Assembly (NCBI RefSeq): GCF_018207095.1
Contig: NZ_QOCZ01000020.1
Coordinates: 1-64,000, forward strand
Reading direction: 5' to 3'
Source: Nocardiopsis sp. MG754419
GTDB lineage: Bacteria; Actinomycetota; Actinomycetes; Streptosporangiales; Streptosporangiaceae
DNA: 64,000 nucleotides
Shown here one piece after another: positions 5,887 through 40,973 of this stretch; the stretch's first letter is position 1, and each line of letters begins with the position of its first letter. Position numbers and translations under genes: made by a program. The notes under the pieces are model-generated. The model saw nothing but the letters and a program-made list of their open reading frames with translations, made no database searches and was not told the DNA's origin.

Positions 5887-6528
5887 TCAGGTCCGGTCGG
5901 AGCCGCCGGCACCCCCGGGGCGCGGCCCGCCCAGCGCTCCGATGAGGCTCGTGACCAGCAGCCGGACCCGCGCGCCCACATCCTCGGCCGGCGCGGTGTC
6001 GGCTCCGGACAACACGGGTGCGTGCGCGTCCAGTTCATGGACCTCGTGCAGGAGCGCGAGGTAGACCATGCGGCACCAGACCGGGTCGTCGACGGCGATC
6101 TCGCCGGCCGCGTACAGCCTGCCGAAGAGCCGTTCCAGCCCCTCACGGATCGTCGGGTCGGACGCCGGGGCGCCCTGACTCCGGGCGGTCGGCGTGAGGC
6201 CGATGACGAAGGGGTGGGCGGTCTTGAGTTCGAAGGCCCCCTCGGTGAGGCGGTACAGCGCGACCAACGGCGGCACCGACTCGACCCGCGCCTGCTGGAA
6301 CGCCTCCCGGTAGCGCGCGTTGAGGTCGCTCACCAGCGCGTCGAGCAGCGCCCGGCGGGACGAGAAGTGGCGGTGCACGGTCGCCCGTCCCACTCCGGCG
6401 GCTTCGGCCACCTGCTCCAGCGAGGCCTGCGGATCGTCGGTGAACACCGCGTTCGCGGCGTCGAGGATCCGGGTGATGCTCTGTCGCGCGTCGGCGCGCA
6501 CCTGTCGGCGCCTGGTGCCTTCGGTCAT
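5887..6528 (-). CDS. TetR/AcrR family transcriptional regulator
   Basis: 213 residues from ATG 6528 (GAGG 8 nt upstream). Residues about 16-62 form the TetR N-terminal helix-turn-helix, with LEQVAEAAGVGRATVHRHFS as its core. The C-terminal ligand domain is not diagnostic. The gene is divergent from the SDR oxidoreductase at 6682. The shared 150-bp gap carries a near-perfect 17-bp palindrome against a sigma-70-type -35 box. By family habit the protein would repress the SDR gene, probably also itself, and release on binding a small hydrophobic ligand. The specific ligand is unknown. Confidence 0.9.
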   Translation of the reverse strand: MTEGTRRRQVRADARQSITRILDAANAVFTDDPQASLEQVAEAAGVGRATVHRHFSSRRALLDALVSDLNARYREAFQQARVESVPPLVALYRLTEGAFELKTAHPFVIGLTPTARSQGAPASDPTIREGLERLFGRLYAAGEIAVDDPVWCRMVYLALLHEVHELDAHAPVLSGADTAPAEDVGARVRLLVTSLIGALGGPRPGGAGGSDRT

Positions 6529-6594
6529 CGGAACCGCCTCATGCGCCCATCGTAGCCGGCTCGCGGGTGTCTCCGCATCGTCATCAAATGAGAC

Positions 6595-6639
6595 ATAAAT
6601 GAATCACTTATTGACAGAAGCAAGACTTGGTTGTTTTAT
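6595..6639 (+). promoter_or_regulatory. SDR promoter with TetR-type palindrome
   Basis: A palindrome, ATAAATGA (6595-6602), A, TCACTTAT (6604-6611), has 7 of 8 paired positions. It abuts TTGACA (6611-6616). Seventeen bases later comes TTTTAT (6634-6639), a fair -10 box. Repressor bound here would block RNA polymerase. The adjacent divergent tetR gene is the obvious source of the repressor. A second small repeat, TCAT-CAA-ATGA (6581-6591), lies on the tetR side. Confidence 0.65.
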
Positions 6640-6681
6640 TTGAGCGGTCGGCACACGCTCTCACGACTGGAGGACCACGAC

Positions 6682-7473
6682 ATGGAACTCGACCTTGCAG
6701 GCAAGCGCGTCCTGGTGACCGGAGCGAGCAGAGGGATCGGGCTCGCCACGGTCCGGGCGTTCCTCGCGGAGGGCGCCGAGGTCACGGCCGTCTCCCGCAC
6801 GAGCACGCCCGACCTGGACGCCACAGGAGCGGCCTTCCTGCCCGCGGACCTGTCCACGCCCGACGGCCCCGGGCGCATGATCGAGGCGGCGTTGGCCGAC
6901 GATCCCCGCCTGGACGTGCTCGTCAACAACGCCGGTGGAGGCGTGGTGTCCGACGGGGTGCTCGCCGACCCCTTCGGGGGACGGGACGAGGACTGGGAGG
7001 AGGCGCTGGCACTGAACCTCTTCGCCGCGGTGCGCGCCACGCGTGCCGCGCTTCCCGCACTGACCCGGGCCCGGGGGGCGGTCGTCACCGTGGGGTCGGA
7101 CTCCACCGTGAAACCGCACACGGTGCCGTTGTCCTACGCGGCGGCCAAGGCGGCGCTCAACGCCTTCTCCCGCGGCCTGGCCGAGCACGTCGGCGGCTCG
7201 GGCGTGCGGATCAACGTCGTCACCCCGTCCGCGACCCGCACGCCCCTCATCACGGGCGAGGACGGCATGGCCGCGAAGATGGCGGCCGCCACGGGGTCGG
7301 AACGGTCCGCCGTCGTGGAGGGCTTCGCGAGACAGGGCGGCCTGCTCACCGGACGGTTGATCGACCCCTCCGAGATCGCCCGGGCCATCGTGCTCCTGGC
7401 CTCCCCCGAGATGCCGAGCGCTGTGGGGTCGAACTGGGCCGTCCACGCCGGGGCCGTGAAGTCGCCCGCCTGA
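6682..7473 (+). CDS. Short-chain dehydrogenase/reductase
   Basis: 263 residues. I chose ATG 6682 because GGAGG lies 8 nt before it; an in-frame ATG at 6631 would fall inside the promoter. The classical SDR signature is complete: GASRGIG near residue 14 for NAD(P) binding, NNAGGG in the middle, and a catalytic Ser in VTVGSDS followed by the YAAAK motif. It should be a soluble oxidoreductase of an alcohol/ketone pair; the substrate is unknown. It is probably controlled by the divergent TetR protein, so it may be an inducible detoxifying or degradative enzyme. Confidence 0.9.
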   Translation: MELDLAGKRVLVTGASRGIGLATVRAFLAEGAEVTAVSRTSTPDLDATGAAFLPADLSTPDGPGRMIEAALADDPRLDVLVNNAGGGVVSDGVLADPFGGRDEDWEEALALNLFAAVRATRAALPALTRARGAVVTVGSDSTVKPHTVPLSYAAAKAALNAFSRGLAEHVGGSGVRINVVTPSATRTPLITGEDGMAAKMAAATGSERSAVVEGFARQGGLLTGRLIDPSEIARAIVLLASPEMPSAVGSNWAVHAGAVKSPA

Positions 7474-7796: not shown

Positions 7797-8312
7797 CTAG
7801 GCGGCGACGGAGACGGCCTGACGCAGACCCGGTGCGGCCACGTCGGCCCAGGCACGCAGGACGCGCTCGGGCTCGCCGATCTCGTCGGAGGACAGGATGA
7901 GGCCGGGCTCGGCGACCCAGGCGCCCAGGTCGGCCAGGAGGATACGCAGGTCCTCCTCGATGCCGTGGCTGTTGCGCAGGTCGTCGACGACGGCGAGCGG
8001 CACGGCGACGGTGTGGCCGAGTCCGAGTTCGGGCAGCCGGTCGAGGAAGACCTTGAGCAGACCGGTGTAGGTGCCGTGGGCCTGGGGCGAGGCCACCAAC
8101 AGCACGTCGCTGTCCCGGACCTTGGCCAGCGCGTCGGTGACCGACGCGGCGGAGTCGTCGAGCAGGGCGGCGCCCAGGTCGGCGAGGTCGATGACGTCGG
8201 GCGTGGTGGTGACACCGGCGCGGGCGGCGAGCTCGGTGGCGGCGCGCTGGGCGGCCGAGCGCACGGCGGAACGGGACTGGGGAGCGGCGACGAGCACGGT
8301 GAAGCGAGTCAT
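7797..8312 (-). CDS. NADPH-dependent FMN reductase
   Basis: 171 residues from ATG 8312 (AGGAG 8 nt upstream). The fold is that of flavodoxin-like NAD(P)H:FMN reductases: VLVAAPQSRS at the N-terminus for the FMN phosphate, SPQAHGTYTGLLKVFLD around residue 83 for the flavin ring, and a C-terminal helix. Such reductases feed reduced FMN to two-component monooxygenases, for example in sulfonate desulfonation (SsuE type). The 5' region supports a sulfur role: a cysteine-type leader peptide (8604-8681) with a hairpin after it lies about 290 nt upstream on the same strand. Whether it is SsuE itself cannot be told, and no monooxygenase gene is adjacent. Confidence 0.8.
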   Translation of the reverse strand: MTRFTVLVAAPQSRSAVRSAAQRAATELAARAGVTTTPDVIDLADLGAALLDDSAASVTDALAKVRDSDVLLVASPQAHGTYTGLLKVFLDRLPELGLGHTVAVPLAVVDDLRNSHGIEEDLRILLADLGAWVAEPGLILSSDEIGEPERVLRAWADVAAPGLRQAVSVAA

Positions 8313-8579
8313 GCGGAGAACTCCTGGGTTCGGTCTGAGCGAGCCGGGATCGACCGGAGGGAACGCGGGGGGCGGTGATCGGGAAGCGGGACACCGGAGA
8401 AGAACCGTGTTCCTCGCGAGTCGGCGCTCGGCGCGGGACCTCGTCGTCCGGCGTCGGTGAACAGCGTCGCTTCGCGCGGGGGTGCTCATTCGGACCGAGA
8501 AGGTCCGTCGACCCTGGAGTGGGAGCTGAGCGTCCGGTGTCTGCGTAGGGGCACTGAGGACACGGGGTTCACCCGTGGC

Positions 8580-8596
8580 GCGGGGCACGGCCCCGC
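8580..8596 (-). promoter_or_regulatory. Candidate attenuator hairpin after the leader peptide
   Basis: A 7-bp perfect stem, GCGGGGC and GCCCCGC around a 3-base loop, begins 7 nt after the leader-peptide stop codon on the minus strand. A ribosome paused on the leader's last codons would cover this stem. It could therefore act as an attenuator or anti-attenuator arm for the FMN reductase transcript. Mechanism is inferred from the layout. Confidence 0.5.
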
Positions 8597-8603
8597 AAAG
8601 GCG

Positions 8604-8681
8604 CTAGCTACGACAGAGCGCGCTCGCCTGCTGTCTGAGGTCGACATGCAGGCGCTGGACAAGCAGCTCACCGGCGGACAT
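8604..8681 (-). CDS. Actinobacterial HVDL-type leader peptide (25 aa)
   Basis: The frame from ATG 8681 to TAG 8604 encodes a 25-residue peptide containing LHVDLRQQASALCRS at its end, with GGAG just upstream of the ATG. Short peptides with the H-V-D-L-x-R-x-x-x-S-A-L-C-R pattern are known upstream of sulfur-assimilation genes in Streptomyces and relatives, and the near-terminal Cys codon is thought to sense charged tRNA-Cys. Here the peptide lies on the same strand as the FMN reductase, about 290 nt ahead of it, and is followed at once by a hairpin. It was recognised by pattern; expression is not proven. Confidence 0.75.
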   Translation of the reverse strand: MSAGELLVQRLHVDLRQQASALCRS

Positions 8682-8723
8682 GTCTCCATCATGAAGCGCC
8701 CCGGCCACTATCGTCAATGCGTG

Positions 8724-8946: not shown

Positions 8947-10080
8947 ATGGCCCACGTACCCCTGACCCTCACCGGCGCGCGCGTAGTGACGGCCGACGGC
9001 ACCCACGACGGTTGGGTCCGCATCGAGAACGGCCGGGTGGCGGAGCTCGGCACCGGCGACCCCGGTCCGGGTGAGCGCCACGACGTCGGCGGACGTCTGG
9101 TCGCACCCGGCCTGGTCGACACGCACATCCACGGCGGTGCCGGTCGGTCCTTTCCCGAGGCCGACCCGGAGGGGGTCCGCGAGATCGTGGCGTTCAACCG
9201 CCGGTCGGGGGTGACCTCGCTCGTGGGCGGTCTGGTGGCGGCCTCGCCGGAGGACACGCTGCGGCAAGTGTCGGTGCTGGCCGAACTGTGCGAGGAGGGC
9301 GCGCTGTCCGGGATCTACCTGGAGGGTCCGTTCATCGCGACGTCGCGGTGCGGCGCGCACGACCCCGCGCTGTTGCGCGACCCCGACACCGCGGAGTTCG
9401 ACGCCTGGCTGAGGGCGGGGCGCGGCCACGTCCGGATGGTCACGGTCGCCCCGGAGCTCCCCGGGGCCCTGGACCTGATCCGCGCGGCGGTGTCGTCGGG
9501 CGTGGTGGCGGCGGTGGGCCACACCGAGGCCACCTACGAGCAGACGCGGGCGGCGATCGACGCGGGCGCGACGGTGGCCACGCACGTCTACAACGCGATG
9601 CGGCCGCTCAACCACCGCGACCCGGGGCCGATCGCGGCCGTTCTGGGCGACGACCGGGTGACGGTGGAGCTGATCCTGGACAACGTGCACGTCCACCCGG
9701 GCGCCGCCCGACTGGTGTTCGACGCGGCCGGTCCGGGCCGGGTGTCCCTGGTGACGGACGCGATGTCGGCGACCGGGCTGGGCGACGGCGAGTACACCCT
9801 GGGCGATCTGCGAGTGCGGGTGCGGGACGGCCGCGCGCACGTGATCGAGACGGGGGCGATCGCCTCCAGCACCATCGTGCTGCCCCAGGCGGTGAGCAAC
9901 ACCGTGGCCCTGGGGGTATCGGTGGAGGACGCGGTGCGCTCGGCGTCCTCGGTGCCGGCCGCCGCCCTGGGGCTGACGGGGGTCGGCAGGATCGAGGTCG
10001 GTGGACACGCCGACCTCGCGGTGATCAATAAGGACCTTTCGGTCGCCGACGTGATGTATCAGGGCAGGTGGGTGGCCTAA
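8947..10080 (+). CDS. nagA: N-acetylglucosamine-6-phosphate deacetylase
   Basis: 377 residues from ATG 8947 (GGAGAGG upstream). The enzyme converts GlcNAc-6-phosphate to glucosamine-6-phosphate plus acetate in the cytosol. Amidohydrolase hallmarks are in order: DTHIHGG near residue 58, LEGPF near 128, metal-binding His in GHTEATYEQ and ATHVYNAM, and the catalytic Asp in TDAMSATG. The length is the family norm. Its partners, a GlcNAc-type PTS, DasR and a SIS-domain deaminase, are encoded 21-25 kb downstream, so the pathway is split over two loci. I see no clear DasR site in its promoter. Confidence 0.93.
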   Translation: MAHVPLTLTGARVVTADGTHDGWVRIENGRVAELGTGDPGPGERHDVGGRLVAPGLVDTHIHGGAGRSFPEADPEGVREIVAFNRRSGVTSLVGGLVAASPEDTLRQVSVLAELCEEGALSGIYLEGPFIATSRCGAHDPALLRDPDTAEFDAWLRAGRGHVRMVTVAPELPGALDLIRAAVSSGVVAAVGHTEATYEQTRAAIDAGATVATHVYNAMRPLNHRDPGPIAAVLGDDRVTVELILDNVHVHPGAARLVFDAAGPGRVSLVTDAMSATGLGDGEYTLGDLRVRVRDGRAHVIETGAIASSTIVLPQAVSNTVALGVSVEDAVRSASSVPAAALGLTGVGRIEVGGHADLAVINKDLSVADVMYQGRWVA

Positions 10081-40096: not shown

Positions 40097-40973
40097 AGGA
40101 CCCCCTTCATCGCGTGGCCGTCGTGAAGGCGACGGCCAGGCTGGCTCTGCTCCCTCCCTGGGCGGGGAGGGGTGTGGCGCGTTCGCCCCCTTCCGTCGGT
40201 GGCGCGAACCGGAGTCCGGCCCGCTTGGAAGTGCGTATACCCATCCGGGAGGGTGTCATCACCCGACCCGTACACATGATTGCCCAGGGCAGGTGAACTG
40301 CGAATAAGGGCTTTCTCCCGATTTGGGACAAGTCAGGGCAAGATCGCCGAGAGCGGGCAGGAAGACCCGCCGGGAGCAGGGGGGCGCGACGTTCGCGAAG
40401 GTGGTCTCGTGGGGACGACGGGCGCGGGCACGGGCGAGAACGCCATGGCGGGCGGCGCCGTGAGCGTCGGGGTCGTGGCAGGGTGCGGGCGCGGCGCCGT
40501 GGAGGTGGGCACCCGGCCCGGGAAGGGAACGGCGAGGGATCCGCGTCCACGGGGTGTCCACCCCGGAAACGTCGGACCCCCGCGCGTCGGCATGCCACCC
40601 GTCCGGCCGACCTGGTCTTCGTCCCCACATCCGCCTGCTGAGAGTGTCGCCGCTCTTGAACGCGACTACTGCTCTTCTCCCTGTCATGAGGGACATCGGG
40701 ACCCTCCGCGGGGCAGGACTTACCTCTAAGGCGCACCGTGATCGGTCGACGAAAAGTCGCCTTACGTGGGCCGTTTCGCCTGCGCCTGGCATCGGCTTGC
40801 CGGTGGAGCTCTCCGGTGTTCCCGGAGGCTTCGATGTTCCGGCGCAACCACGGACCCGGACGGGTGCCATACCTGGACCGTAACCTGTCCGGGGCCGTAT
40901 GTCAGGTGGGGAACCGGCCCACGAGCCGCCGAACGATCCCGCAAAGCCTTACAGAAAGGCATCTTTCGCCTGT
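40097..40973. other. Large gap upstream of hpf
   Basis: 877 bp with no gene I can support. The frames open here have shadow composition. It must carry the hpf promoter. AAGGCG (about 40728) and CGCCTT (about 40760) frame a possible stem. GCCTT (40946-40950) and AAGGC (40956-40960) form a small hairpin which, on the minus strand, is followed by TTTG and may end comF. An unannotated small RNA or leader is possible but cannot be shown. Confidence 0.45.

Follow-up and report, generated by a model that had tools for sequence, protein, structure and literature searches.

Ahead of an FMN reductase gene on the minus strand of Nocardiopsis sp. MG754419 lies a short open reading frame (ORF) whose peptide ends in a cysteine motif. 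This arrangement has the potential to tie expression of the reductase to the supply of cysteine, and raises the question of whether the leader senses this amino acid and, if so, how the signal reaches the gene. The original prediction, made from the window (the whole 64,000-nucleotide stretch of DNA analysed here), was ribosome-mediated attenuation by charged tRNA-Cys. By comparing the locus with its relatives, we arrive at a related answer, to which we give a probability of about 0.7: the region attenuates a stand-alone, SsuE-like FMN reductase through ribosome stalling in response to cysteine, with Rho as the most likely output. The features involved are collected in Table 1.

Table 1. Features of the leader-reductase locus, in window coordinates
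Feature	Position	Strand	Basis
-35 element TTGACG	8712..8717	-	TTGAC 35-37 nt before leader ATG in 55/55 orthologous loci
-10-like element CATGAT (CATNAT in most relatives)	8688..8693	-	Transcription predicted to begin at the A of the leader ATG
Leader peptide ORF MSAGELLVQRLHVDLRQQASALCRS	8604..8681	-	Sequence (ATG 8681-8679, TAG 8606-8604); 55/55 orthologous loci; NF042934 23.9 bits (cut-off 27)
P1 hairpin within leader ORF, CGCCTGC-A-TGTC...GACA-GCAGGCG	8625..8654	-	Exceeds synonymous versions in stability
Regulatory cysteine codon TGT (codon 23)	8613..8615	-	Invariant in FMN-reductase, named-genome and class-wide leaders
P2 7-bp hairpin, GCGGGGC (8596-8590)-CGT-GCCCCGC (8586-8580)	8580..8596	-	Stem scores against shuffles; no U-tract after
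C-rich, G-poor untranslated spacer, candidate Rho-loading region	8313..8579	-	C>G in 55/55 spacers
Reductase Shine-Dalgarno AGGAG	8321..8325	-	Sequence reading
Stand-alone NADPH-dependent FMN reductase, SsuE-like flavodoxin fold, putative regulated gene	7797..8312	-	PF03358, 1.2e-17

The leader is conserved ahead of orthologous reductases

The leader ORF has 25 codons, and 291 nt separate its stop from the reductase ATG at 8312, in agreement with the frame and the distance of about 290 nt given originally. A near-invariant leader stands ahead of 55 of 55 orthologous reductases from about 25 genera (30/30 loci of the same genus and 25/25 of other genera in the family, where the reductases are 51-68% identical over the aligned part), a count that, like the other comparative counts given here, comes from related loci lacking phylogenetic independence and overstates the number of independent events. 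It is also present in 53/53 named Nocardiopsidaceae-type genomes (Nocardiopsis, Streptomonospora, Thermobifida, Marinactinospora, Marinitenerispora, Allosalinactinospora, Actinorugispora, Murinocardiopsis, Allonocardiopsis and others), a set that overlaps with the 55 loci. Outside the family, the leader is missing at 23 of 27 loci of paralogs with less than 50% identity, and the immediate upstream regions of paralog loci L120-L126 and L132 hold no leader. The reductase stands alone, with nagA divergent upstream and an SDR gene beyond its end. The divergent nagA (window 8947-10080) adjoins the leader-reductase unit in 54/55 loci across genera; the downstream neighbourhood is not conserved, and TetR and SDR genes (window 5887-7473) adjoin the reductase solely in this species among the 55 loci.

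Across these orthologs, GELLVQRLHVDLRQQASALC scarcely changes, and variation is confined to the end of the leader (CRS, CCS, CRR or CP). Over 20 core codons compared between genera, pN/pS is 0.05 (pS 0.35, pN 0.018). To judge from the leaders of the wider class described below, the leader peptide is selected as a peptide, because the third bases of the motif vary while its residues do not, and its Cys codon is selected as a codon.

Transcription probably starts at the leader AUG

In the window, TTGACG is followed by 18 nt, CATGAT, 6 nt and the leader ATG. The distance from TTGAC to the start codon is 36 nt in 45 of the orthologous loci; in the other ten it is one nucleotide shorter or longer (35 or 37 nt). 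Because this distance is fixed in 55/55 and a CATNAT -10-like element is present, the leader mRNA is probably leaderless, beginning on the AUG or right next to it; the -10 hexamer is poor, so that the mRNA may instead have a short 5′ UTR. The leader had originally been credited with a ribosome-binding site of its own, a GGAG. Immediately 5′ of the leader ATG the sequence reads GATGGAGAC, with GGAG merely 2 nt away, and several other genera lack it (for example TTATGGACATC-ATG), so we rejected GGAG as the leader Shine-Dalgarno. As GGAG is not conserved and the promoter-ATG spacing is fixed, it is probably part of the promoter-start region instead. An Rfam search gave no match at the leader locus; elsewhere on the minus strand of the window lie a raiA RNA (RF03072, 145 bits; 40598-40864) and the tmRNA gene (RF00023; 14498-14869).

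Related leaders precede sulfur genes

Two further leaders of this kind occur in the same genome, one before a sulfite reductase-cysH operon and one before a sulfurtransferase. A search of 148 genomes of the class with the NCBIfam profile NF042934 gave matches in 116. The first genes after 99 class leaders were mostly sulfur genes, as the original prediction had held for H-V-D-L leaders: rhodanese (31), sulfite reductase (14), PAPS reductase (6), luciferase-like monooxygenase (6), ThiS (6), TauD, sulfatase and FMN reductase (3), the last of these being loci picked for adjoining leader and reductase matches, so that the count is not a frequency. Those three FMN reductases belong to Streptomyces-like genomes and follow HVDLARVSS leaders; at the one locus read through (L127), SfnB-like and SsuD-like genes come next. 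Sphaerisporangium reductases, 46-49% identical to the one studied here, likewise follow HVD[LF] leaders of their own, in which the cysteine codon is TGT too. The suggestion that the reductase represents a new target class is weakened by these Streptomyces-like ssuE-sfnB-ssuD operons and Sphaerisporangium loci. In the open-licence papers searched, we found no report of the leader motif or of an FMN reductase target.

SsuE-type FMN reductases already belong to sulfur scavenging. The best NCBIfam match of the reductase is SsuE (TIGR03567, 47.1 bits, far below the equivalog cut-off of 164). A 44% paralog in the same genome lies in an operon with an SfnB-like gene and the gene of an SsuD-like monooxygenase (1e-139). 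Because its paralog and related FMN reductases sit with such genes, a role of the reductase in sulfur scavenging is plausible.

The core cysteine codon is always UGU

The core cysteine is encoded by TGT in 55/55 FMN-reductase leaders and in 53/53 named genomes. Most FMN-reductase leaders have a single Cys codon, and 12/55 have two adjacent ones. From the loci of the class-wide search, 101 leaders were tallied by a codon-blind pattern: the core Cys was TGT in 101/101, whereas the other Cys codons in these leaders were TGC 100 times and TGT 22 times (100/122 TGC; Fisher 4e-42). TGC makes up 79% of Cys codons in the window. Among leaders missed by the pattern, three read TGT, as do 12 more, including an HMDL type, bringing the total to 116/116 class leaders resolved. 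This distinct HMDL leader, VRLWRRVHMDLVRYAGCVCRPSC, is found at L158, L159, L162-L164 and L166-L168, in one Streptomyces-like genus, with TGT at its core Cys. The tRNA-Cys (GCA) reads UGU by wobble, which may be the reason why UGU is invariant.

Conservation is not confined to the cysteine. The Arg codons 13 and 6 positions before it and the Asp codon 9 before it are (nearly) invariant class-wide in their residues despite variable third bases. In known arrest peptides, residues at such a distance line the exit tunnel. The nascent HVDL-x-R...SALC peptide could therefore itself be the sensor or arrest sequence that pauses the ribosome at UGU, for which one Cys codon would be enough. The low pN/pS in the FMN-reductase subfamily fits this idea, which is compatible with the attenuator and which we regard as a tentative addition to it; the conserved residues could, however, serve another role.

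Two hairpins flank the cysteine codon

P1 surpasses its synonymous alternatives in stability (weighted mean z -2.3, 27 distinct segments). Many members can pair CGCCTGC-A-TGTCG with CGACA-GCAGGCG; those with AGA as the Arg codon, the window among them, lack the innermost pair. The excess is restricted to the P1 segment: the minimum free energy of the whole leader shows none against synonymous shuffles (z -0.5 with leader codons, +0.7 with genome codons). P1 is built from codons that are rare in this genome (CAT, CGA and AGA). Other rare leader codons (window 8607-8681) are also kept across genera, namely GAT for Asp (48/55, against a background of 3.6% in the window) and GGT for Gly (55/55); P1 accounts for the rare CAT and CGA/AGA, not for GAT and GGT.

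P2 begins 7 nt past the leader stop, where the original prediction had placed it, and its stem score exceeds shuffles both within the genus (21.3 versus 14.5±0.6) and in other genera (17.2 versus 13.7±0.6), while a control 60 nt further on gives no excess. It is found across genera with differing stem sequences, and is not general to class leaders (12.4 versus 12.0). Given typical ribosome footprints, stalling at UGU would place the ribosome over the 3′ arm of P1 and bring it to a halt directly ahead of P2. An alternative P1-P2 pairing, judged by eye, was too weak in the window's genus and was set aside. So was a long-range pairing of GACACCGGA with TCCGGTGTC: it is visible by eye in the genus alignment, but most other genera show no evident counterpart of these blocks.

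A C-rich spacer and a probable Rho-dependent output

A simple terminator hairpin is not supported: no U-tract terminator follows the leader, and TTTTT occurs in 1/55 spacers. The spacer is rich in C (43%) relative to G (29%), and C exceeds G in all 55 orthologous loci, compared with 27/55 for DNA upstream of the promoter and 12/24 upstream of other genes in the window. Class-wide, C exceeds G in 100/101 regions after the leader stop versus 49/101 upstream. Because the spacer is C-rich over G, no U-tract terminator is present and the genome contains a Rho gene, the regulatory output is most likely Rho-dependent; a C-rich spacer is compatible with Rho and not a proof of it.

Alternatively, the stalled ribosome could act on translation, by blocking a structure that otherwise hides the reductase ribosome-binding site, as in mycobacterial polycysteine leaders; translation attenuation has been described for several cysteine genes of M. 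smegmatis (PMC13236596). Spacers of 67-87 nt in some orthologs and a low overall predicted accessibility of the reductase Shine-Dalgarno (0.26) would suit this route. Yet blocking the leader raised the predicted accessibility in just 17/55 loci and lowered it in 5, moving the mean from 0.26 to 0.29, which is weak evidence because folding of 300 GC-rich nucleotides is unreliable. Folding gave no consistent mechanism connecting the stall to the reductase Shine-Dalgarno; its pairing partner varies between species, which counts against sequestration by the leader. A hairpin just before the Shine-Dalgarno, though visible in many species, was rejected, with z about 0 over the 55 loci. Overall, we consider this route doubtful here. 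In one genus (L110:1549-1700, minus strand), where the spacer measures just 67 nt, the reductase Shine-Dalgarno region and the leader start TCTCCTGGT are complementary; this may be a direct masking version.

A model for cysteine-responsive control of the reductase

The attenuator model builds on the conserved peptide, the invariant UGU, the fixed promoter-ATG spacing, the two hairpins, the C>G spacer, the lack of an intrinsic terminator and the sulfur context, all read from sequence; from these we infer the transcript start, stalling, Rho output, induction on cysteine starvation and the role of the reductase. Transcription would start at or next to the leader AUG, and 70S ribosomes would initiate on the leaderless end. 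With Cys-tRNA plentiful, the 25 codons would be read through and the ribosome would depart, leaving the C-rich spacer naked, so that most transcripts would end early, most likely by Rho. With Cys-tRNA in short supply, the ribosome would stall with UGU in its A site, melting P1 and coming to rest directly ahead of P2, and reductase expression would rise. The FMNH2 produced could then feed FMNH2-dependent desulfonation, for example by the SsuD-like operon elsewhere in the genome.

Cysteine sensing by the leader appears well supported by comparison. Of the original proposal, attenuation by charged tRNA-Cys gains strong comparative support from the invariant peptide, TGT and the leaders of sulfur genes, while a Shine-Dalgarno-led leader and a simple terminator are not supported. 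Several observations count against the attenuator: there is mostly one Cys codon, the reductase lies outside a sulfur operon here with divergent nagA as its conserved neighbour, and the model does not account for the shielding of a long spacer by a ribosome halted as early as codon 23. The extreme amino-acid conservation might instead reflect a functional 25-residue protein acting in trans, placed before the reductase for co-expression; this is very unlikely, as it explains neither the invariant TGT, nor P1 within the ORF, nor the related peptides before many sulfur genes. A chance ORF and hairpin between divergent genes, conceivable in GC-rich DNA with its many short ORFs and stems and given the modest z-scores of individual hairpins, is refuted by the 55/55 conservation across about 25 genera.

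If the attenuator model is correct, cysteine-responsive leader control extends to a stand-alone flavin reductase and couples the supply of FMNH2 to sulfur status, throughout a bacterial family to which Thermobifida belongs. Being invariant across the class, UGU would pick out the sensor codon from sequence, apart from other Cys codons in the same leaders. Amino acid and tRNA are the same for UGU and UGC, and a change from UGU to UGC would be expected to affect regulation if selection acts on the codon as such. The conserved non-Cys residues also raise the question of whether some attenuators double as arrest peptides. More speculatively, HVDL-type actinobacterial leaders may form a class of cysteine sensors in which the nascent peptide and a single obligatory UGU, read by G-U wobble, combine into a sharp stall; the Nocardiopsidaceae FMN-reductase leader, flanked by hairpins and with Rho as output, would be the most rigid form of this class.

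Comparison with known leaders

How does this leader relate to systems already described? In classical terminator/antiterminator attenuators, a hairpin with a U-tract ends transcription; P2 lacks the U-tract and so is no intrinsic terminator. The locus shares with Rho-dependent attenuators a C-rich, G-poor untranslated stretch after the leader. The uORFC-8-2 leader of cysS in alphaproteobacteria (PMC8632094) is likewise an attenuator with Cys codons in an upstream ORF, but has tandem Cys codons, mostly UGC, and an intrinsic terminator, where the present leader has one UGU and no terminator. Cys leader peptides lacking terminators were predicted earlier by Seliverstov et al. 2005 (PMC1262725), before cys genes and with Rho suggested; those have runs of Cys codons and occur in other lineages with other targets.

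Similar too are the mycobacterial polycysteine attenuators (Canestrari et al. 2020, doi 10.1111/mmi.14498, as related in PMC13236596 and PMC9094748). Those are leaderless, as ours is predicted to be, and both are short ORFs with Cys near the stop and sulfur targets; ours differs in having one Cys codon and not a run, in its invariant UGU and in lending no support to Shine-Dalgarno masking. With NF042934 (cis_reg_atten, "putative leader peptide", actinobacteria), the leader shares a short ORF that carries H-V-D-L-x-(R)-x-x-(A/S)-S-A-(L/I)-C-R close to its end, a core Cys encoded by TGT and a position upstream of sulfur genes (here an SsuE-like FMN reductase with a putative sulfur role). It scores 23.9 bits against a cut-off of 27 (orthologs mostly 22.4, one 31.4), has RQQAS in place of RV-S and a near-frozen N-terminal half, GELLVQRL, and is flanked by P1 and P2 ahead of one monocistronic gene, whereas class leaders show no P2 excess. 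Because it scores below the NF042934 cut-off and lacks the polycysteine feature, the leader is a formal member of neither class, yet probably works like both.
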